Of a stretch of 64,000 nucleotides of DNA, positions 2,719 through 48,586 are shown piece by piece. Within the stretch, counting starts at the first letter, position 1, and each line of letters begins with the position of its first letter. Made by a program: the position numbers and the translations under genes. The stretch is from a virus: positions 33,297 to 97,296 of the IMG/VR virus record IMGVR_UViG_3300025030_000058; one strand, 5' to 3'. The notes under the pieces were generated by a model that was not told the origin of the DNA, did no database searches, and saw nothing but the letters and a program-made list of their open reading frames with translations.

Positions 2719-2964
2719 CTACAATTTCGTGATAGTCCAACTGTTCCCTTGCGCCTTGGAGTAGATCATCCGGCATGACAACAGGGTACAGTAGAGTTTC
2801 AACTCCGACGCGGAAGCCTTGACTTGATGGGCGTGGAAAGTCCCGTGCAACACGGTCACGCCATCCTTGACGACCGTCACCTCCACATAGCCCGTGGGGA
2901 AAAAGTTAGCCAGACTACACCCTAAAAGAGTCAGGACAAGGAACAACAACGCGCAACGCTTCAT
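2719..2964 (-). CDS. Small lipoprotein, 81 aa
   Basis: The N-terminus MKRCALLFLVLTLLGCSLA is a short basic region, a hydrophobic stretch and a lipobox (LTLLGC), so the mature protein should start at a lipidated Cys16. GAGGAG precedes ATG 2964, which overlaps the upstream stop as ATGA. The mature part is a small beta-rich domain (GYVEVTVVKDGVTVLHGTFH). It could alter the host envelope, for example in superinfection exclusion. An Rz1-like role is less likely because the endolysin is far away. Confidence 0.7.
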   Translation of the reverse strand: MKRCALLFLVLTLLGCSLANFFPTGYVEVTVVKDGVTVLHGTFHAHQVKASASELKLYCTLLSCRMIYSKAQGNSWTITKL

Positions 2965-3194
2965 ACACAATCTCCTCGTGCGAACTTCTGGCACTCGCGC
3001 AGAGCACCAACAATGCGCATGACTAAAATGATAGGCCATACAGATCCAAGGATAAACGGGACCACGGCGACAACAAAGGCTTGAATAGCCCTATGCACCG
3101 GCTTCCGGCGTAAGTACGCAGGCCCCTCGGGAAGATAGTAAAGGGCGAAGATGCAGGCAACCCCGACGTAGAGTTGCCATAGAGGGATTGGCAT
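2961..3194 (-). CDS. Small two-helix membrane protein, 77 aa
   Basis: There are two hydrophobic segments: residues 4-22 (PLWQLYVGVACIFALYYLP) and about 37-60 (AIQAFVVAVVPFILGSVWPI). A basic loop (RRKPVHR) between them is probably cytoplasmic. The start ATG is within TAATG, shared with the upstream stop. It overlaps the lipoprotein gene, so the two products may act together in the envelope. No family is recognised. Confidence 0.65.
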   Translation of the reverse strand: MPIPLWQLYVGVACIFALYYLPEGPAYLRRKPVHRAIQAFVVAVVPFILGSVWPIILVMRIVGALRECQKFARGDCV

Positions 3195-3436
3195 TACTTC
3201 TTCCGGATGGCCCCCGAGGAGGTCATGCCATCGATTTCCGTGTTGAACTTCTCGACGGCCTCGGGGATACCCAGAAACACGTCTTCCTGCACCTTTTCAT
3301 CCAACAATGCGCGCACGTCCTCCTCCGTCTCCCCCTCTCCCACCTCCGCCTCCATCATCGTGGACATCGTAAGGGGATGGAACGGCCGCGCCTGGATGGT
3401 CAAAGAAAAATGCTTGCTGATTTTCGTGATTTTCAT
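3194..3436 (-). CDS. Hypothetical acidic protein, 80 aa
   Basis: This is the first gene after a near-consensus promoter, with AAGGAG five bases before ATG 3436. The N-terminal half is basic and beta-like (MKITKISKHFSLTIQARP). The C-terminal half is acidic and helical (EVGEGETEEDVRALLDEK). The position suggests strong early expression. The function is unknown. Confidence 0.7.
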   Translation of the reverse strand: MKITKISKHFSLTIQARPFHPLTMSTMMEAEVGEGETEEDVRALLDEKVQEDVFLGIPEAVEKFNTEIDGMTSSGAIRKK

Positions 3437-3459
3437 GTTCTCTCCTTCATTTCATCTGC

Positions 3460-3488
3460 ATTATACCGCATCTTATACAGTTTGTCAA
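3460..3488 (-). promoter_or_regulatory. Sigma70-like promoter for the 3436-to-1 gene run
   Basis: On the minus strand, TTGACA (3488-3483) and TATAAT (3465-3460) are perfect consensus boxes separated by 17 bases. The expected start of transcription near 3453 gives a 17-base leader that contains the AAGGAG site. This is the best promoter in the window. Confidence 0.9.
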
Positions 3489-3635
3489 GTGAGGTAAGCA
3501 TGTTTCCCCACGTTTCAGCACACCAAGCAGTCCAGGATTGAATTGGGCAGGATGACCGGGAGGAGGACACGGAAAATTGATCCGGGACGATCCTGACGCG
3601 AGCCATGACCTGCCAGACCGGGTTTGCGTGCCCAT

Positions 3636-4271
3636 CTACGCCCCCGGCTCCGGTGGTTTCTGCGCTTTCTTGGGCACGCGCTTCCGGCGAGGGGGGAGTT
3701 TGCGCCGTTTGTCCCGTTTGATGACCTTTCCGCCAAGGTCCTCCAGTACGGGGGAGACTTGCCCTGGTAGGGCGGGAGGTGTGGCTGGGGATTCGCCTCC
3801 AAGTGCCAACGTGGGAAGGTCCAACGCAGGGAGATCCCCGCCGATGTACTCCAATACGGTGGCAATGAGCTGCCGACGTTCGCCGTACACGTCCATGAGC
3901 AATTTGGCGGCTCCCTCGGCGCTGCGGAACGTGAGGGGTTTGCGCTCCCGATCCGTGCCCACGGCGTCCTCGGGGTTTTCAGGATTGTTGGGCCGGATGG
4001 CCGCCAGGGACATTTTCTGGAGTTCAGAGAGATCCCGGTCCATGTCCGACAACGTGCGCGCCAGCATGGTTCGCGCGCGCTCCTGCATGCCACGTTTGAT
4101 TTTTTTAAGGAATCGGTCGCGTTTGCGCGTCCAGTCCAGGTTATCCTTCCAAAAGTACACCATCCGCTCGTTCAGCCCCAGCGTCCGGGCGATCACGGGC
4201 ACGCTTTGCAAGGCCGTGCAGTACAACTCCTCCGCTTTTAGCTGGTTGAGTTCGTCGGCGCTGTCCCGCAT
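3636..4271 (-). CDS. HTH protein resembling small terminase subunits, 211 aa
   Basis: Residues 13-45 (EELYCTALQSVPVIARTLGL then NERMVYFW) look like the helix-turn-helix of phage small terminase subunits. A long charged helical region follows (residues 45-95), then a Pro-rich linker and a very basic tail (KRDKRRKLPPRRKRVPKK). GGGAG precedes ATG 4271, and the gene overlaps the NYN gene by 34 bases. A terminase role is inferred from architecture only. No large subunit is nearby, so a regulator of another kind is possible. Confidence 0.45.
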   Translation of the reverse strand: MRDSADELNQLKAEELYCTALQSVPVIARTLGLNERMVYFWKDNLDWTRKRDRFLKKIKRGMQERARTMLARTLSDMDRDLSELQKMSLAAIRPNNPENPEDAVGTDRERKPLTFRSAEGAAKLLMDVYGERRQLIATVLEYIGGDLPALDLPTLALGGESPATPPALPGQVSPVLEDLGGKVIKRDKRRKLPPRRKRVPKKAQKPPEPGA

Positions 4272-31059: not shown

Positions 31060-34000
31060 CTACGTAGAAAATCCTACGGTGACGATTTCCGTGGGCCCTA
31101 AGAAGAAATTAGAGCCTCGTGTGTGATTGATCAAGTGTCCGGTCGTAGCCAAGCGAAGGTGCTCAAGTATTTCCCGAACGCTGTACTCTCCTGGCGCAAA
31201 GGTCACTATCTTTGCCGTATGCGGGGTCGTGACGGGATTACCTTCTACAATATGGACGCGCAGTGTTCTATCCGAAACACCGGAAAAATCATAAGGCCCG
31301 TCAATTGTACTGATGACTTTGGTATGCCAAGGGTTCCCAATCAATGCCCAATACGTCCCGTTTGGAGGGCGTTTCGCGGCGTCCGCAGTGTGGTTTAAAA
31401 TACAGTTATACTCCAAGCCGAGGTCTTCGACATGATCTCCAACGGTGTACGCGGTGCCATCCGTCCAGATATATAGCACCGTCAATCCTAATATGGTTGC
31501 GGCATCCAGTGTGGATTTCTCAAACAAGAATTGCACCAGTGTGGGCTCCGTGGCAAGAATACGCACGCGATTCGCCATGGCTACGATAGGGGACCACCAT
31601 GCCGGGCTGGTCACGGGGTTATGATTGAGATTCCCATTTTGTAGGCTTTGATATAGTACGTCCTTGAAACATGCGTAATCATTCAAAGCATAGGTCGTTC
31701 CAGAATCCCACGTGTCTGGGGAAATCTGCATCCAATAGGCGGGGCTGGACGCAGGGGGTTGATTTACGTTGGGCGTTTGCAGACTGGCCCAATACACCTG
31801 TTGCGTCTCGACAATGGCATTGACGGCGTAGTCATAGGCGGCGTCCCACAGACAGTAATCCACCACACCCCCCGCTCCCGTGACGCCGACTAGGGTAATG
31901 CCTTCCCGCCCATCCCTGCGTCCGGGGGTTCGGAACGCGATCCCGGCCACACCCTCGTATGACCGGGTACTGTCGTATTCCGGGCCCTCCGCCGGAAGCG
32001 CCGCCGTCCACCACAACGGACTCACGTCCGGCGTATTCCCGATATTCCCATCCTGGATGCTTTGATAGTGAACCAGTTGATAGGTCACCCAGTCTCCGGT
32101 GGCATAGGTAGCCCCCACGCCCCACTGAGGCTGTTCCTGGCTCCATTCCCCCCGATTGAAGGGGATTCTGTTTACGCTGACTTCAAACGCATTCTCATCC
32201 AGACCATAACCCAGCCCTAAGTTTTCTTCCGGCTCATCGGCGTTTTCGATAATGGTGTCCACCACCGAGAACAAGTCAAAGACGATATGCGCGGGGCGCA
32301 ATAGTTCCAGAACGCGCTCAAATGCCGTCTGTCTCTGAACCAAGGTATCTCCTGTAATGGATGGGTCTGTATTGGTAAATTTGATACTGACGTGTGGCGT
32401 CGGGAAGTAGTCATTGGTTTGATGATGCCAGGAATAGTAGAATTTTACGGTGCCGTTGGCCAGGAACGCATTGAAAGCCGCCACGTCGGAGATATGGATA
32501 TACCCCTCCGTGAAGTACACATACCCCACGATAGCTTGTGTGCCATCCGCCGCTATGGCCACAAAATCCCCGACACCGGAACGGATACCACGACCCTCTC
32601 CGTCCTTGTCCGTGGTCCTGCGGTGCGTAGAGAACGCCCGGACCTCTCCATTGTTGACCAGCCGCACGGACCCCACCATCAACGGGTACTCTTTGTAATC
32701 ATCCGGGTTCATGGAGATCGCCGACGGATCATGCGGCAAGTAAATGCGCAGAGTATTCCCCACCGTGGAGGACAGTATGCTGGGATCCATCGTCCAGGCA
32801 TCCGTGGCATAAAACGCCACCTCCAGACCTAGGACGGTTTGCTGTATCTCTTTCCACCACGCTGGGCTGGCAGCAGGGTCGTGATTGAGATTCCCGTTTT
32901 GCAGACTTTCCCAGGTCTTGGAATCGCTGCGTACCACCCGTCCGAGAGCGTAAGTGACCCCAGCGTCCCAAGGAATACCCCACATGGGGCCATGAGTTGA
33001 CGGAATATCTGTGTACTTGATGAACGTCTGATAATCGCATGACCATAGCTCATCTACAACCGTGGCATACGCCAGCAGGTATTTAACCATTTGCAGAGAA
33101 GGAAGCGCGCCTTTTAGACGGTAGAATTCCACTAAGTTCCCGAGCAACCAGCGCTTGTCCGCCTCAGGCATAAAATACACCAATGGAAATCCAAATTCAT
33201 TGGCAATCTCATTCAAAAAGCGGTCAGCCGCCGTTTCCAAGGCTCGGATACCCGGATAGTTCCGGATGGAGTACAACATCTCATCCATATACTTTGCCAG
33301 TATCTTCATGTAGAACCGGAGATTACTATCATAGCCCGTCCACACGACCCTCAACGTGTACGCTGTGACGCCTGCGAGTTTATTCAATAACAGGGACACT
33401 CGGCCTTCCGTATCCCCGCTTAACACGTACACGTGGGCATCCAGGACCGTCCCCTCCAATGAGGAGACCCTTGTCCAAGTTTCCAATCCAGCACCGATGT
33501 CCACCTGGACGACAATTCTCCTGCCGATCAACGGTACCCGGTCTGCGGATTGAATGATAATTTGAATTTTTCTCCACCATGTGTCCGTGGCATTCCCCGT
33601 CGGCGTGTGCGCGAGGTTCCCGTTTTGCAGACTGACCCATCCCACATTGTCATAGAGCACGGTGTCTCCGGCGGCGTAGGTCGTGACCACTGACCACGGC
33701 GAGGCATTCCGCGCGGGGATATCTACCTTAGTGGATTCCCCAAACACCACCGAGTAGTCCCCCATAGCATCCATGGTCACTTGGAACACCTTGGCGTAAG
33801 GAGGGGGAGGGGGCAACGCCGTCAAATCGTCCACACGGAAATACTCATCCCCGTCAACGGTAACGTAAATGGCTTCGGGTAGTGTCCCCGAGCAAAACAC
33901 AGGGTACGTTTGGTTGTCCCCGCCGACGGCATTTTCCGTCTGATTGAAATGACAGAGATACACCCGCAAGCCGTCCCGCGTTCCATCCAGTTCCGTTGGG

Positions 34001-41865: not shown

Positions 41866-44766
41866 CTATGACTGCACCGATGACAAGTCTTGGGGCGCGT
41901 ATGCGGGCATAGTTCGAGAATACCCGGAGTTACGCCGCGCCGCCGAAGCAGGTGCCTTCTTGTCTTTCGTGTCCGCTTCTACCAGGTCGTTGTTCTTTTC
42001 ATTTGCTACCAGGATGCTTTTCAAGTGCTTGTTCTGCTCACGGGTTTCCATGAGAAGTTGTTGCGACACGTCCAATGTGGTGGCGTAGGGTTTCTTTTCC
42101 TTTCCAGCAACTAACGCCTTGCCTACAGGAACCGCCTGTGGAGCGGCTTGCGGAGCTGCCTTTCCCCCTAGGAACCGGCCAAGGATGCCGCCTGCAAATT
42201 GTGCCACGGCTCCAAGGGCTTTCAACACTTTGTCTAGTCCTAAGAACTCTAAAATACGGTTGCCAATAGCCTGAATGGGCTTGATGAACGTGTCCTGCAC
42301 AAAGGCTGCAATCTTTTGCGCGATGCCTTGCAGGCCGGATAGGAACTGTCCCACCCACCCTTTAACCCCTTTGGATAATCCTGTTAACGCCCTTACCGGA
42401 CTTGTAAAAAGCGTTTTCCAGAACCGAATTACGGATTTTTCGGCTTTTATAAGCCAAGTAATGACTTTTATCACGGCTTGAAACACTTTTACTACGATTT
42501 TAAGACTAAACGCCACGTATTTCAGTTGAAGAACCAACCCTTTCCCAAGAACTTTAACCAGTAATCCGACGGCAGCTCCCACGTACTCAAAAAACACCTT
42601 CGCACCTTCACCCTTACTTTTAAACAGCCCAATTTCTTGGAAAATATCCACTATAGCCGACCAAAGATCCTTGAACGCGGGAATCAAAGGCTTTAAAGCG
42701 TCCATCACCTCTTTAAACCCTTCTCGTACGGGCCCCCATGCCTCCTGTAAGCCTTGCAGGACATTATCTTTGAAGAGTACCCAACCAGACTTCAAAGACG
42801 ACCACAGGGCCTTAAACGGGGCTGCCAATTTTCCGAGGAACTTGTCCCATGCCGCCAATGCTTCCTTACCACCAAGTTTCTCAATCAGTGGCCGCAGAAC
42901 ATACTTGTTGAAAAGTTTCACCAAGTCAAACGCCAGGAATGCAATTCCGATGCCTCCCAATAATCGCAGGCCTAATTTAAGCCCTATTTTAGGGAGAAAT
43001 TTCAAAATAGGGGATAAGGCGCTCTGGAAAAGCCCCAAGACTTTGCCCCCTTTACCCTTCCCTAAGATGGATCCCAGAAATCCTCCAGGAGATATGCCCG
43101 AGAGCTTGTCCAGGACCTTTCCAACAGCAGGTATTTTCTTAGCGATCCCAAGAAATCCGCTAAGTTTGTCGGTAATTGTGCTGGCAATCCCAACCCCTGA
43201 CAACGCGCCGGATAACATAACGAGGGCAACGGCGGCGGCCTTGACGGGCCCTGGAATCTTGGAGACAATGGCAAAGAATGGTTCCGTCACCTTCAAGGCC
43301 AGCTTTAACCCCGCAATCAACGGGGATAACACGGGCAGGACAAAGTTTCCAATGACGTTCTTCCACAGGGCTTTGAGCTGGTCTTTCAAATCAGAGACAG
43401 TGCCTCGGAAACTATCATAGGTCGTGTCCAAAGTATCAGTTTTTCCGTTCGCCTCCGTCATGGACTTGGCGATCTTGTCAATCTCAGCCTCGGAAGCGTT
43501 GCGCAGAGTTCTCAGCATATCTGCGCTGCTTCCGGTCATTCGGGCGTAGTTGTCAATCATCCCCGCATTCATCCCTTTGGCTTTGCGTGCCATCCCCTTA
43601 ACCAGCGCCGTCATGGCTTTGTCAATGCCCTTGCCGGAATTGATAGCCTCACGCGCGGCGCGGGCGGACATTCCCCCCAAGGGGGCGTAGATGCCGAGCA
43701 GTTTATGCCCGTCCACGTCAGCGGCGTCCCCGACTTTTTGGAGCATGTCCAGAATGTCGCTTTCTCCCACGCCGATTTGCCCGAAGAGTCCACGCACGGC
43801 CAGGAGTTGCTTCTGCACGGATTCCCGCAGATCCCCGGCTCGGAAGCGCTTGACGTAATCTTGCGCCTGTCCCAGGAAGCCCATCAATTCCGTCGTGGAC
43901 TCCCCTGTGGCCTTGGCGACGTTGAGCATGGCGGATCCAATGCGGTTGATGCCCTCAGGGGATAAGCGGTTGATCCGCACCTGATTGGCGATGAATTCCG
44001 CCGCTTCCGCGTTGCCCATGCCGAAAACCTTAGCATATTTCACTCCGCTGGAGGTCAAGGTATCCAGTTGATCGGCCGCGATCCCTGACTTGGCGTACGC
44101 ACCAAAGAACTCCCCGATGAGGGCGGAGTCTACTTTGAGCTTGGCTCCCAGGTTAACGGCTTGGTCGGTGAGGGCTTTAATGCCCGCAGCCCCCACCTCC
44201 ACGCCCTTGGCAGACGCGGCGACACCTGCCATAGTATTCTGGAGGTCCGCCATGTCGTCAATGGCATCGCCGAAGGCCAACATGCCCGCGATGGAGCCCA
44301 GTTGGGCTACCCAGCTATCCGTGATGCGCATAGCCTTGCGGACAAACAACTTGTACTCCACTTCTTTTCGCCGCATGTCCTTGGCGGATAGCACCTTTTC
44401 CAGGAACCCGGATTTTTCCGCCGACGAGGCCTTGGGCATCAGGGCGTCAATCCATCGACGCCCCGTGCGGATCATGGCCGTCTCCCCTTGCTCCTTCCCG
44501 ATTTTCTCCATGTTCCGGATCAGCACATTCAACCGCCCGGCTACCTCGTCCGCCTGCTCCTTCTTGGCGAACTGCTTGAAGGCGTCCCCCCACTTCTTAA
44601 TGGTGTTCTCGGTGACGCCAACGGATGTGGATGAGGCCTTTTCCGCCGACACGATCCGCTTCTTGAACCGCTCCCAACGGTCGCCGATATTCTTCAAAGG
44701 ACGGGTCATATCGTCCTTCAACGAATACACGTATTGCATGGCGAGCAGTTCAGTGTCGGCGGCCAT
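41866..44766 (-). CDS. Tail tape measure protein, 966 aa
   Basis: AAGGGAAATA precedes ATG 44766, which overlaps the frameshifted chaperone stop. The N-terminal 500 residues are helical with charged periodicity. Several hydrophobic segments follow (VKAAAVALVMLSGALSGVGI, LGGIGIAFLAFDLV, YVGAAVGLLVKVLGKGLVLQ), as in TP901-type tape measures that fix tail length and help DNA passage. It is the longest tail gene after the gpI-like gene and lies in the standard position. Confidence 0.92.
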   Translation of the reverse strand: MAADTELLAMQYVYSLKDDMTRPLKNIGDRWERFKKRIVSAEKASSTSVGVTENTIKKWGDAFKQFAKKEQADEVAGRLNVLIRNMEKIGKEQGETAMIRTGRRWIDALMPKASSAEKSGFLEKVLSAKDMRRKEVEYKLFVRKAMRITDSWVAQLGSIAGMLAFGDAIDDMADLQNTMAGVAASAKGVEVGAAGIKALTDQAVNLGAKLKVDSALIGEFFGAYAKSGIAADQLDTLTSSGVKYAKVFGMGNAEAAEFIANQVRINRLSPEGINRIGSAMLNVAKATGESTTELMGFLGQAQDYVKRFRAGDLRESVQKQLLAVRGLFGQIGVGESDILDMLQKVGDAADVDGHKLLGIYAPLGGMSARAAREAINSGKGIDKAMTALVKGMARKAKGMNAGMIDNYARMTGSSADMLRTLRNASEAEIDKIAKSMTEANGKTDTLDTTYDSFRGTVSDLKDQLKALWKNVIGNFVLPVLSPLIAGLKLALKVTEPFFAIVSKIPGPVKAAAVALVMLSGALSGVGIASTITDKLSGFLGIAKKIPAVGKVLDKLSGISPGGFLGSILGKGKGGKVLGLFQSALSPILKFLPKIGLKLGLRLLGGIGIAFLAFDLVKLFNKYVLRPLIEKLGGKEALAAWDKFLGKLAAPFKALWSSLKSGWVLFKDNVLQGLQEAWGPVREGFKEVMDALKPLIPAFKDLWSAIVDIFQEIGLFKSKGEGAKVFFEYVGAAVGLLVKVLGKGLVLQLKYVAFSLKIVVKVFQAVIKVITWLIKAEKSVIRFWKTLFTSPVRALTGLSKGVKGWVGQFLSGLQGIAQKIAAFVQDTFIKPIQAIGNRILEFLGLDKVLKALGAVAQFAGGILGRFLGGKAAPQAAPQAVPVGKALVAGKEKKPYATTLDVSQQLLMETREQNKHLKSILVANEKNNDLVEADTKDKKAPASAARRNSGYSRTMPAYAPQDLSSVQS

Positions 44767-44978
44767 TATTTCCCTTTCGTCATGTGCGCGACCTCATCCG
44801 CGTACTTATCCAGCCTGGCCATCCACCACTGGCGCTGGGCGATGGTCATCTCCTCGATTTCCGTCAGTTGTAGCTTTCCCCCCATTTTCAGGAGGAATTC
44901 CTGTTCGAGAATATCCTCCCACGTTGATCTTGGGCCGAAAAAACTCCGCGGACGGCTGCACGTCCTGCCGGGTCTCAT
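44766..44978 (-). CDS. C-terminal extension of the chaperone reached by a +1 frameshift
   Basis: The frame from about 44936 reads STWEDILEQEFLLKMGGKLQ then IAQRQWWMARLDKYADEV, typical of the second product of tail chaperone genes. It has no ribosome binding site of its own. A shift on TTT-TTT-C (44943-44937), which has GGAG three bases upstream of the slippery codon as in prfB, would give one protein of about 329 residues. An extra T from a sequencing error would look the same. Confidence 0.6.
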   Translation of the reverse strand: MRPGRTCSRPRSFFGPRSTWEDILEQEFLLKMGGKLQLTEIEEMTIAQRQWWMARLDKYADEVAHMTKGK

Positions 44979-45756
44979 GCCCGCATTCGGGGCACACGGC
45001 TACGGTTTCCATCACAAACCCGAATTGCTTGTCCCGCATGGCGGTTTCGAGGAACTGCGCGTCGTACATCACGAGGTCGTCCAGAACCTCGATCTTTCGG
45101 CGCATGGAGAAATTGGCGCTCATGTCCTCGCCGTCGATGCTGACCACGGCCTGCGCCATACGCACGACCATGATGATGTTCTTGAGGTCCTCCAGGGCTT
45201 TCTTGCGCGCCTCAGGGTCCCGTTCCTGGGCCGCGTCCTCCATGATCTTGCGCACGCGCTTGGTGATCTCCGGCTCATCCTTACCGAACAGGTAGCGCCA
45301 CCCGAATTTCTTGCCGCACACGGGGAGCACGGTGTAAAACGGCGGCTTGTCCTCTTCCGTGGCCACCAGCGTGTCCAGGTCGTCGGGCCACCGCATGTAA
45401 TGCGTGTACTTGCTCTCACACCGGGGGCAGATCATAGTCTGCTCAATGTCGTGCCCCAGACTGATGGACCGCAGGACCACCATCAGGTACATGACATCCA
45501 TCAGGAGCAGCTCGTTCGGCGGGAACGGGAGATCCGTGCATTCGCTGAAAATCTGGAGCATTGTCTTGAACATGGTATCGTTCGTGACCGACGCCAGAAG
45601 GCGCTCATGCCGGGTTTTCATGGGAGTGACGGTTACGATGCCGTCCGGAGGCTGCCCCCCGTAAAACAATCCCGCAGAGGGGAGGCGGATCTCCGTGGGG
45701 CCGAACCGGCTGGTTTCCTTGTTGAGCGAGGGGGTTACAATTTTCACTTCCGACAT
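44806..45756 (-). CDS. Tail assembly chaperone / T4-baseplate-like protein, zero-frame form, 316 aa
   Basis: The protein resembles the T4 gp26-like baseplate chaperone family: FPPNELLLMDVMYLMVVLRS, two CxxC pairs (CPRC, CPEC) and a CPECGHETRQDVQPSAEFF segment. It lies between tube and tape-measure genes, where tail assembly chaperones are found. After EFF the zero frame continues with 43 residues of low-complexity type. The neighbouring frame (44978-44766) continues with a protein-like sequence, so a frameshift at 44943-44937 is likely. Confidence 0.75.
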   Translation of the reverse strand: MSEVKIVTPSLNKETSRFGPTEIRLPSAGLFYGGQPPDGIVTVTPMKTRHERLLASVTNDTMFKTMLQIFSECTDLPFPPNELLLMDVMYLMVVLRSISLGHDIEQTMICPRCESKYTHYMRWPDDLDTLVATEEDKPPFYTVLPVCGKKFGWRYLFGKDEPEITKRVRKIMEDAAQERDPEARKKALEDLKNIIMVVRMAQAVVSIDGEDMSANFSMRRKIEVLDDLVMYDAQFLETAMRDKQFGFVMETVAVCPECGHETRQDVQPSAEFFRPKINVGGYSRTGIPPENGGKATTDGNRGDDHRPAPVVDGQAG

Positions 45757-45850: not shown

Positions 45851-46354
45851 TTATGCCTCCTTGATGAACTTGTCGAAGGCGATGGTGACGGGGATGCCGA
45901 TTTCCTCAGCGCTTCCGTGTTCCAGTGCCACGGAGCCTATAGCAGACGGCCAGGCGTTGATGAGCTTGAACTTGCGCTCTATGCTGCCGTCACTGGACAC
46001 GAGCAACAGATAGCCGTTTTTCTTATACTGGTCATTGGACTTAATTGCGCCCGTCTCGGGATCGTATACCGATTTCCGCCACTGGATCACCTTGTCAAAG
46101 GAGTCCTGGTCCACGAAGTCCCGGATAACGATCTCCCCCTCCTCAATCGTCACCATGCCGGGGTACTTGGAGAAGGTGTTCATGTACGGCATGGACATGA
46201 CTTCATTGGACTCCGAGGGAGTGAAGGCGCTCTTGACCATCAGCTTGAGCGTGTCCCCTCCCGGAAAGCCGTCGAACTCCAACTCGAAATGCCCCGAGCG
46301 CTGCGGTTCAAACTTCCCGCCGGAAACCAAGTGCCCCGCGTCCATTCTTGACAT
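45851..46354 (-). CDS. Tail tube protein, gp19-like, 167 aa
   Basis: AAGGAG lies six bases before ATG 46354. The fold pattern fits gp19-type tubes: HFELEFDGFPGGDTLKLMVK, then IEEGEIVIRDFVDQDSFDKV, IQWRKSVYDPETG and a beta end with FKLINAWPSAIGSVALEHG. It polymerises as hexamer rings inside the sheath. The gene follows the sheath gene but a likely terminator lies between them. Confidence 0.9.
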   Translation of the reverse strand: MSRMDAGHLVSGGKFEPQRSGHFELEFDGFPGGDTLKLMVKSAFTPSESNEVMSMPYMNTFSKYPGMVTIEEGEIVIRDFVDQDSFDKVIQWRKSVYDPETGAIKSNDQYKKNGYLLLVSSDGSIERKFKLINAWPSAIGSVALEHGSAEEIGIPVTIAFDKFIKEA

Positions 46355-46447: not shown

Positions 46448-48586
46448 TTAGATAGTGAACTCGTTCAGGTCCGCGCCGGAGGGCGTGACCACGAAGTCGA
46501 TCTGGATGATTTCCGCCACGCGCGTGGGGTCCAAGATAATGACCCCGTGCATTTCATTCCGGGCAATGGCGTCCGGGGGATTGGTGGCCGCGTCACACTT
46601 GACGGCGTAGCTATTCAACCCCCGGCGGTTCTTGACGCCCTCCAGGAACGGTTCCACCAACCCCTTGAACCGCCGCCAGGTCACGGCATCGTCCAATTGG
46701 AACAACAGCAGGTAGGAAGATGCAGCAATCGTCTTGCGGAGGTACAGGAGCAACCGGCGGACGTTGATCCGATCCATGGCCGTCGGGGCGCGTTGGAGCG
46801 TCCGCTGACCGAAGATGGTTACGCCATGACGCGGGGGAGCGATGATGGGATTGACCGCGTTGCCGTTCCCATACAGGAGATCCCGGTCCCCCTGATCCGC
46901 CTCGAATTCCAGTTCCATCACGTTGATGAGACGACCGTAGACGGGACCGGCGGGAGCCTGCCAGACCTCGGCGTTGAAGTCGGTGTAGGCGATGGCTCCC
47001 GCGACGAAGCCGGACGGCGGAACCCACACTTCCTGCTTGTTCGTGTAGTCCTGGACCTTCAACCACGGCCAGAATAGCGCGCCGTAGGACGAGTCATAGG
47101 CGACATGCGAACTGTTGGGGGCCAACCAGCCGTTGTGCCAGTCGATCACTTCCGACACGTCAAAGCCGATGGGAGGATCAATCAGGGCCAGGCAGTCACC
47201 CCGTGTCTCCGCGATGGTCAGCAGTTCCGTGACGACGGCATGGGCGTACTCGCCGGGGACAGCCAGAAGATTGACATCCACGCGGTCCACATTAGTGAAC
47301 GCCTGGAGGGACGCGACGAAATCCGCGTCCAAGGCCGCTGCATCCACACCGGCGGCCAGGGTGAAGGTCCCCAACGTAGGAGTTGTCAACGTGGATCCCG
47401 TCATGTCGATCTCAATGTAATGCGAGGAGATCTTTTTCATGATGAAATACGGGGATGTGGGGTCCATGTCCAGCACGTCCGCGACGTAAAGGGAATTCCC
47501 GCCTGTATCCTTGACAGTTAACTTGAATGTGCTGGAAATACTGCCCGCAGACGTGACGACCTGGAACCCGTTGGCCCAGACGCCTTTGGAATAGGCGTAC
47601 GCGGTAAACGCCGTTCCGCCGGAGGCCACGCCGGTGTACGTGACATTATCCCATCCTAACGCGGTTTCGCAAAGGGAATCGGCATGCATGGTGAGGTTAG
47701 AGGCCGCACCTGTAGTCAAGGAGGAAATCTTAATCTTGTTGTTGACAACTTCCGCCAGGCCCCACAGGCTGAAATCCGTCAGAGCGTTGATAGCGGTAGC
47801 AACCTGCGACGCCGTCAGCGTCCCGCCGCCGAGGTAACCAGTGATTGTGTGACCCGTGTCAATGACCAACTTGATGTAATCCGTCCCCGCGATGACATCC
47901 GCGCCCGCCTTTGCCACGCCGACGGCTGCTGTAAATCCCAACGTGGTATAGCAATCGTTGGCGACGGCGGTAACCGTGAACGTGGCGGCCGCGCCCGTAG
48001 TATTGTGTGTAACCTTGATCTTGCCTCCATCGGGAGCAAACGTTAGTCCAGCGGATCCAGCGTTCAATTCACCGCAGATTTGCGCGGCCGTTCGACTGCC
48101 AGCGGTCAACGTGACCGTATAGGGCGACGCGCCGGGATCTGGAACAATGGCCACCAGGAACTTGTCATTCACGCCGGTGGAGATGTTGAAGTTCTCCGCC
48201 TCGATCCCCGTGAACGTCGCGGCCTGCGCGTCCACGTGCGCCACGAGCGTAAACGGCCCCGCCACGGTGCCGGTATGCGATCCAGGCGTGGCTCCAGCCG
48301 TCACAATAATCCGTGCTTCATCGGCGGCAGCTCCGGTGGTGCGTAGCACTTTGGCGTTTTTCCCGTTCCGCAGGTACGCAATGACGGCGTAGGTGGCCAG
48401 ATAATTAGGATTCACATTGCCAAACTCTAACGCTAAATCCAGAACGTTGGTGATGTCCGTGATTTTGTCCGTACGCCCCTTTTCAAACTCCCCGGCGACG
48501 CCGAAGATGCACGTGGACAGATTGGCCACATAGGCCGAGAGATCCCGTTCTGTGGTGTAAATTCCAGGGCTGACATGTACAGACAT
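46448..48586 (-). CDS. Tail sheath protein with inserted domains, 712 aa
   Basis: AAGGAG precedes ATG 48586. The start VHVSPGIYTTERDLSAYVAN and the end (QRAPTAMDRINVRRLLLYLR, then AASSYLLLFQ, and NEMHGVIILDPTR) are standard sheath sequence. Between them lie two related repeats of about 75 residues (YTVTLTAGSRTAAQICGELN; HTITGYLGGGTLTASQVATA), each with a conserved A-x-x-I/L-x-x-x-I/L-N core and an end in A/T-L-G, like flagellar hook IN motifs. They probably protrude from the tail surface. T4 gp18 is of similar length. Confidence 0.9.
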   Translation of the reverse strand: MSVHVSPGIYTTERDLSAYVANLSTCIFGVAGEFEKGRTDKITDITNVLDLALEFGNVNPNYLATYAVIAYLRNGKNAKVLRTTGAAADEARIIVTAGATPGSHTGTVAGPFTLVAHVDAQAATFTGIEAENFNISTGVNDKFLVAIVPDPGASPYTVTLTAGSRTAAQICGELNAGSAGLTFAPDGGKIKVTHNTTGAAATFTVTAVANDCYTTLGFTAAVGVAKAGADVIAGTDYIKLVIDTGHTITGYLGGGTLTASQVATAINALTDFSLWGLAEVVNNKIKISSLTTGAASNLTMHADSLCETALGWDNVTYTGVASGGTAFTAYAYSKGVWANGFQVVTSAGSISSTFKLTVKDTGGNSLYVADVLDMDPTSPYFIMKKISSHYIEIDMTGSTLTTPTLGTFTLAAGVDAAALDADFVASLQAFTNVDRVDVNLLAVPGEYAHAVVTELLTIAETRGDCLALIDPPIGFDVSEVIDWHNGWLAPNSSHVAYDSSYGALFWPWLKVQDYTNKQEVWVPPSGFVAGAIAYTDFNAEVWQAPAGPVYGRLINVMELEFEADQGDRDLLYGNGNAVNPIIAPPRHGVTIFGQRTLQRAPTAMDRINVRRLLLYLRKTIAASSYLLLFQLDDAVTWRRFKGLVEPFLEGVKNRRGLNSYAVKCDAATNPPDAIARNEMHGVIILDPTRVAEIIQIDFVVTPSGADLNEFTI

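Follow-up and report, generated by a model that had tools for sequence, protein, structure and literature searches.

Predicted +1 and −1 Frameshifts at the Same Phe-Phe Codons of a Homologous Phage Tail Assembly Chaperone Gene

Introduction

Frameshifts in phage tail genes are known and are usually backward, while the forward shift in prfB (RF2) is a +1 P-site slip accompanied by GGAG 3 nt upstream and by a stop codon. Tail chaperone frameshifts have been described as widely conserved, with the exception of T4 (PMC5009743). In lambda, gpG and gpGT constitute a short and a long chaperone related by a −1 shift (Xu, Hendrix, Duda 2004, as cited in PMC5009743), and a −1 shift in the chaperone of another myovirus was reported in 2025 (PMC12846349).

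Forward frameshifts are described in one account as having no general motif (PMC10885494). A +1 tail chaperone shift has been predicted for HSTV-2 and for haloviruses of the HF1 group, in the latter at TTT-CGC (PMC7230728, PMC5009743). In influenza A PA-X, a +1 shift at UCC_UUU_CGU was established by mass spectrometry, and a P-site slip on UUU_C is the explanation preferred by its authors (PMC3498833). Tail assembly chaperones of T4-like phages are the subject, according to its title, of Vladimirov, Gautam, Davidson 2022 (Virology 566:9), and another paper summarizes that the chaperone is present in a short and a longer copy in some T4-like phages.

Here, we consider a 64,000-nt stretch of viral DNA, referred to below as the window (positions 33,297 to 97,296 of the IMG/VR record IMGVR_UViG_3300025030_000058, which has 97,296 bases; all coordinates are those of the window unless another locus is named). 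One gene in this window very probably produces both a short and a long tail assembly chaperone via a programmed +1 frameshift, as judged by comparison with related sequences.

Results

The Candidate Chaperone Gene and Its Neighbors

The order of genes on the minus strand is tail sheath, tail tube, a gene encoding a 316-aa protein, and tape measure. The tail sheath protein (46448..48586, minus strand; 712 aa) matches phrog_23 with E 5e-77 as well as PF04984, the tail tube protein (45851..46354, minus strand) matches phrog_4542 with E 2.5e-14, and the tail length tape measure protein (41866..44766, minus strand; 966 aa) matches phrog_991 with E 5.1e-11. The location of the candidate chaperone gene between the tail tube and the tape measure is observed both in the window and in relatives.

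The zero-frame ORF (44806..45756, minus strand), which would encode the short form (TAC-N), yields a 316-aa protein that matches PF12322 (T4 bacteriophage base plate protein) with E 5.2e-12 and 46.3 bits, above the curated cut-off of 24.5; T4 gp26 and gp51 belong to the same family. The protein also matches phrog_150 (baseplate hub; E 6.6e-18). The PF12322 domain ends at Phe273, that is, at the slip codon itself. In the AlphaFold2 model, with the overall mean pLDDT of 86.5, the N-terminal domain is confident and the blocks of the extension have values of ~58–74. The model matches the SP-15 homolog (TM 0.84 on the target) as well as further baseplate hub proteins of T4-like phages; no structural relatives were found in PDB at E <= 0.001. 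The window protein also has two zinc-ribbon-like CxxC pairs, C110/C113 and C255/C258, which are kept in several relatives and missing from the aligned sequences of immuto and Mel-JY01.

The Frameshift Site and the Overlapping Frames

The initial annotation had proposed a likely +1 frameshift at GAG TTT TTT CGG, leading to a C-terminal extension. Direct inspection confirms this sequence, ...GCG GAG TTT TTT CGG CCC..., and places it on the minus strand, which had not been specified, while the extension turns out to be longer than the quoted WEDILEQEFLLKMGGK. The slippery TTTTTTC (44937..44943, minus strand), delineated from direct sequence and from slip-codon conservation in relatives, consists of the first TTT (44943–44941), the second TTT, which is the predicted slip codon (44940–44938), and C at 44937, which makes the +1 codon TTC. 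The zero-frame A-site codon is CGG (44937–44935).

An open +1 frame extends from 44999 to 44769. Its 56 codons past the slip (44769..44936, minus strand), identified as the TAC-C domain by profile match, are followed by the stop codon TAA (44768–44766), which overlaps the tape-measure ATG at 44766, forming TAATG. If TTTC is read as one step, the result is a single 329-aa protein without a stop. The zero frame continues for 43 codons past the slip (44809..44937, minus strand), and this tail is read in two frames. In most relatives the zero-frame tail comprises from few to ~12 codons, and the 43 codons of the window exceed those of nearly all relatives listed, both frames using ~130 bases there.

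A canonical −1 tail chaperone frameshift of the X_XXY_YYZ type was considered for the window and rejected, since the −1 frame closes both 37 nt before the zero-frame stop and 8 codons past it. By itself, TTT_C lacks specificity, as it occurs in frame 18 times in 15 window genes. Moreover, CCC-A just 3′ of the slip site is another possible +1 site, and TTTTTTC in the window, taken alone, permits also a −2 slip.

The Out-of-Frame Extension

An HMM built from the extensions of 21 relatives with the same slip type, the window being left out, matches the window extension with E 4.1e-7, the next window segment having E 1.1. The predicted extension is the only convincing match among 915 segments (six-frame window segments of at least 40 aa), which exceeds what chance would give. 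The HMM from the extensions of 101 +1 relatives, also without the window, matches it with E 4.1e-4, and the profile from 73 −1 relatives, with E 0.032. A comparison of extension fragments with PHROGs and Pfam yielded nothing convincing, the best match being phrog_634 (baseplate hub assembly catalyst) with E 0.02, for L099.

Six T's are present at the site in two further public contigs, each matching the window with 100% identity (over 10,948 and 6,217 bases, respectively), although these are weak as independent reads, because they possibly come from the same site. That the reads would contain five T's, reducing the locus to a plain single gene, is very unlikely given the out-of-frame domain in relatives. 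The six consecutive T's might also suggest transcriptional slippage on the run, or an error of sequencing or assembly. Either is extremely improbable, as the run is short, other assemblies concur, and several relatives in which the run has three T's still keep the out-of-frame domain.

Survey of Relatives

A tblastn search in phage genomes identified the gene in Bacillus phage SP-15, Listeria phage LIS04, Streptococcus phage GXN1, two uncultured jumbo phages, as well as in phages that are more distant. At least 195 further loci came from three pattern searches in viral contigs, two of these searches contributing the best 80 each; the patterns were N-terminal, outside the C-terminal part. Out of 208 loci with the gene, four end before the zero-frame stop, and 204 among the matches listed were counted. 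An extension was called automatically if it overlapped the zero frame by at least 6 nt and had at least 35 codons past the stop. Among these listed matches, 111 loci had a +1 extension only, 85 a −1 extension only, five both, and three neither; the latter are L129 and L192, located at contig ends, and the window with its late zero-frame stop. The eight unsettled loci were assigned by clade, yielding 116 +1 and 88 −1 loci, which are counts among the best matches listed and hence not frequencies. The 204 loci form 176 non-redundant representatives, 103 +1 and 73 −1 among the matches listed, and the out-of-frame C-terminal domain is conserved across relatives.

PBECO4, RaK2, Vibrio 2.275.O, CM1, Bellamy, and KVP40 are all of the −1 type with T_TTT_TTY. 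A scan of genome contigs yielded one relative, L214, which is located in a bacterial assembly and is +1 with TTT_CGT. A large ORF is found downstream in 77 of the 84 +1 representatives with enough sequence and in 2 of 66 −1 representatives (both among the matches listed), so the sampled −1 members are mostly not beside a same-strand tape measure.

In PBECO4, Bellamy, and KVP40, the annotation has separate small genes (L215 3283–3492, L219 3199–3369, and L220 3322–3489) at the location of the predicted −1 extension of the gp26-like gene. Alishewanella phage Slickus01 (L011) was retained in the survey as +1 and excluded from the extension models and the slip-type counts; its locus (2899–3720) has no FF site, and the downstream +1 frame carries SPESISKMSVSKYDFYISALEKDL, which resembles the extension motif and the C-terminus of T4 gp51.

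Conservation of the Slip Codons

The slip codons are conserved at the frame junction. Of the 73 −1 representatives among the matches listed, 72 have the heptamer T_TTT_TTY (TTC in 70 and TTT in two), the exception, L151, having T_TTT_TCC. In the +1 set, TTT followed by C or T is observed in the overlap in 99 of 103 representatives, and CCC-A is the only candidate in four of 103, again among the matches listed. In a +1 subclade formed by L037, L041, L042, and L047, TTT_C is absent and AAT CCC AGT is kept at the junction, which may indicate that the slip has moved to a proline codon.

By slip type, the 102 +1 representatives (L011 excluded) were split into 22 FFR/FFH/FFS, including the window, 76 FFW/FLW-like, and four ELFNP, for which CCC-A is the common candidate. 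Among the matches listed, in the window type the second Phe codon is TTT in all 22 cases (121/183 in the background), the base after it is C in 21 of 22, and the following Arg, where present, is always CGN (19/19, compared to 75/255 in the background). The window site, TTT_CGG, fits UUU_CGN, and 19 of the 22 window-type loci have CGN. In the FFW/FLW type of the same listed matches, the first Phe codon is TTT in 76 of 76 (background 503/643), and the next codon is TTT in 58 cases, CTT in 17, and CTA in one. The binomial values for second-Phe TTT (1e-4), Arg CGN (8e-11), and FFW/FLW first-Phe TTT (8e-9) are guides only, as the relatives are not independent.

In the window type, the first Phe codon is TTC in 7 of the 22 listed loci (site TTC TTT C), and because of that the slip is neither −2 nor transcriptional as a common mechanism. 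Slippage by −2 has been reported in phage Mu, and on TTTTTT it would add one extra residue. Perfect re-pairing two bases back would be available in 15 of the 22 window-type loci among the matches listed, including the window, whereas in the seven with TTC TTT C and in 17 of 76 FFW/FLW sites with TTT CTT it would create a mismatch, the +1 move onto TTC pairing well. Moreover, the C that follows TTT in 21 of 22 is needed by the +1 slip only, and we consider the −2 slip very improbable.

A separate small gene in the downstream frame, with its own start and translated by coupling, is another reading. It would agree with the annotation of separate ORFs there in SP-15, Mel-JY01, immuto, Bellamy, KVP40, and PBECO4, and with the start codons in the extension frame upstream of its last 40 codons in 96 of 102 +1 and 63 of 73 −1 representatives among the matches listed. 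On the contrary, no ATG, GTG or TTG is found there in six of 102 and 10 of 73 of these listed representatives, respectively, and the slip codons are conserved beyond codon usage, differing as each direction requires. The window has an ATG in the +1 frame at 44978, but this codon is internal to the zero-frame gene and precedes the slip codon by 38 bases. We consider a separate gene very improbable. The slip of tRNA-Phe by +1 from TTT to TTC in a tail assembly chaperone, as initially suggested, is supported by synteny, the out-of-frame domain, and codon conservation.

Opposite Shift Directions in One Family

The HMM of the +1 extensions matches 26 of 73 −1 extensions, and the HMM of the −1 extensions matches 49 of 102 +1 extensions (E<1e-3, among the matches listed in both cases); control-frame translations yield no matches to either HMM at E<10. 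The two profiles are aligned by hhalign with E 5.9e-9. By sequence comparison, the extensions reached by predicted +1 and −1 shifts are homologous.

In the tree constructed for 74 of the 176 representatives, three changes of direction are required. A single change would suffice in none of 200 bootstrap trees, although the branches with strong support enforce by themselves just one. The branch of the window is long (1.89) and has no starred set, and the five rows nearest to the window are all +1.

We consider it likely that one homologous chaperone gene uses the same Phe-Phe codons for opposite frameshifts depending on the phage lineage, with UUU_CGN acting as a bacterial +1 signal and with two to three switches of direction. 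The −1 shift would occur on U_UUU_UUY in T4-like and jumbo phages, and the +1 shift on UUU_C (or UUU_U, CCC_A) in a broad group that comprises the window, SP-15, Listeria LIS04, Streptococcus GXN1, Flavobacterium immuto, and Microcystis Mel-JY01. In such a case, UUU_CGN would work without a stop codon or a strong Shine-Dalgarno sequence, being convergent with the signal of influenza PA-X.

Proposed Mechanism and Candidate Stimulators

We infer that translation from a single start yields two chaperones. Most ribosomes would stay in the zero frame and produce the 316-aa short form. In a fraction of ribosomes at GAG-TTT-TTT-CGG, the P-site tRNA-Phe, paired with the second TTT while CGG waits, would move one base forward, from TTT to TTC, where pairing is better. 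The 56-codon C-terminal domain would then be added, yielding the 329-aa long form, which exceeds the short form by only 13 residues and whose translation would finish in TAATG at the start of the tape measure gene. By analogy with lambda gpG/gpGT, the short form may coat the tape measure, and the extra domain of the long form may recruit the tail tube.

GGAG located 3 nt 5′ of the slip codon (44944..44947, minus strand) is a possible weak Shine-Dalgarno stimulator. It is not conserved: among the 22 non-redundant window-type loci (among the matches listed), GGAG at the 3-nt spacing is seen only in the window and in L034. With two such loci out of 22 and a sense A-site codon, the parallel drawn initially with the Shine-Dalgarno stimulator of prfB is not supported. 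The in-frame stop of a prfB-type +1 site was rejected for the window, where the A-site codon is CGG, and so was a rare A-site codon, CGG being the commonest Arg codon in 15 window genes (17.0 per 1000); as CGG is not rare, slow A-site decoding is not evident. A search for downstream RNA structure at the window site revealed nothing unusual, with a fold z of −0.77 and no Rfam match. The identity of the E-site and A-site codons provides candidate stimulators.

Discussion

While tail-chaperone frameshifting itself is known, the new feature is the use of the same Phe-Phe codons in the same chaperone gene with the predicted shift in opposite directions. In the literature searched, with Vladimirov 2022 and most subscription papers outside the scope, we found no report of a +1 shift in PF12322 genes. 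If true, the presence of bacterial-phage UUU_C +1 sites beside −1 homologs would allow for a direct test of what sets the frameshift direction, on a +1 phage set that is large and partly cultivated. It would also account for small “hypothetical” ORFs between gp26-like genes and tape measures, leading to better annotation of many phages.

The window site resembles that of prfB in the predicted +1 P-site slip and in GGAG, and differs from it in having no stop codon and in that GGAG is not conserved. With PA-X and related eukaryotic-virus sites it would share P-site UUU moving to UUC, with CGN as the next codon, whereas the ribosomes there are eukaryotic and the gene is unrelated, so that the likeness is one of the shift signal only. 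The HF1-group haloviruses are alike in the predicted +1 direction, the TTT_CGN motif, and the gene position; they differ in the archaeal host and in the protein family, as tested for HF2. The HF2 chaperone was rejected as a homolog, having no PF12322 match, and its first ORF matches phrog_14268 and phrog_12163.

With lambda gpG/gpGT, the window shares the predicted set of a short and a long chaperone and the position of the gene beside the tape measure, but the shift is −1 in lambda and would be +1 on TTT_C in the window, whose protein belongs to a different family (PF12322). Among T4-like phages, KVP40 and Bellamy show the −1 arrangement, with T_TTT_TTC as the site, compared to the predicted +1 in the window.

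In T4 itself, the two copies are reportedly genes 26 and 51, and frameshifting is said to be kept in several T4-like groups. T4 gp26 (208 aa; PF12322), with the C-terminus KEFFELL, corresponds to the window short form, and gp51 (249 aa; PF12322), with ~48 residues beyond the domain, to the long form, T4 having two genes versus one in the window. The gp51 extension was not accepted as a clear homolog, as it matches the family weakly, with E 0.021 for the −1 model, which is suggestive only, and scores below some shuffles with the +1 model. Still, as T4 gp26 and gp51 are both from PF12322 and some T4-like phages carry short and long copies, the window phage most likely makes by frameshift from one gene what T4 makes from two.
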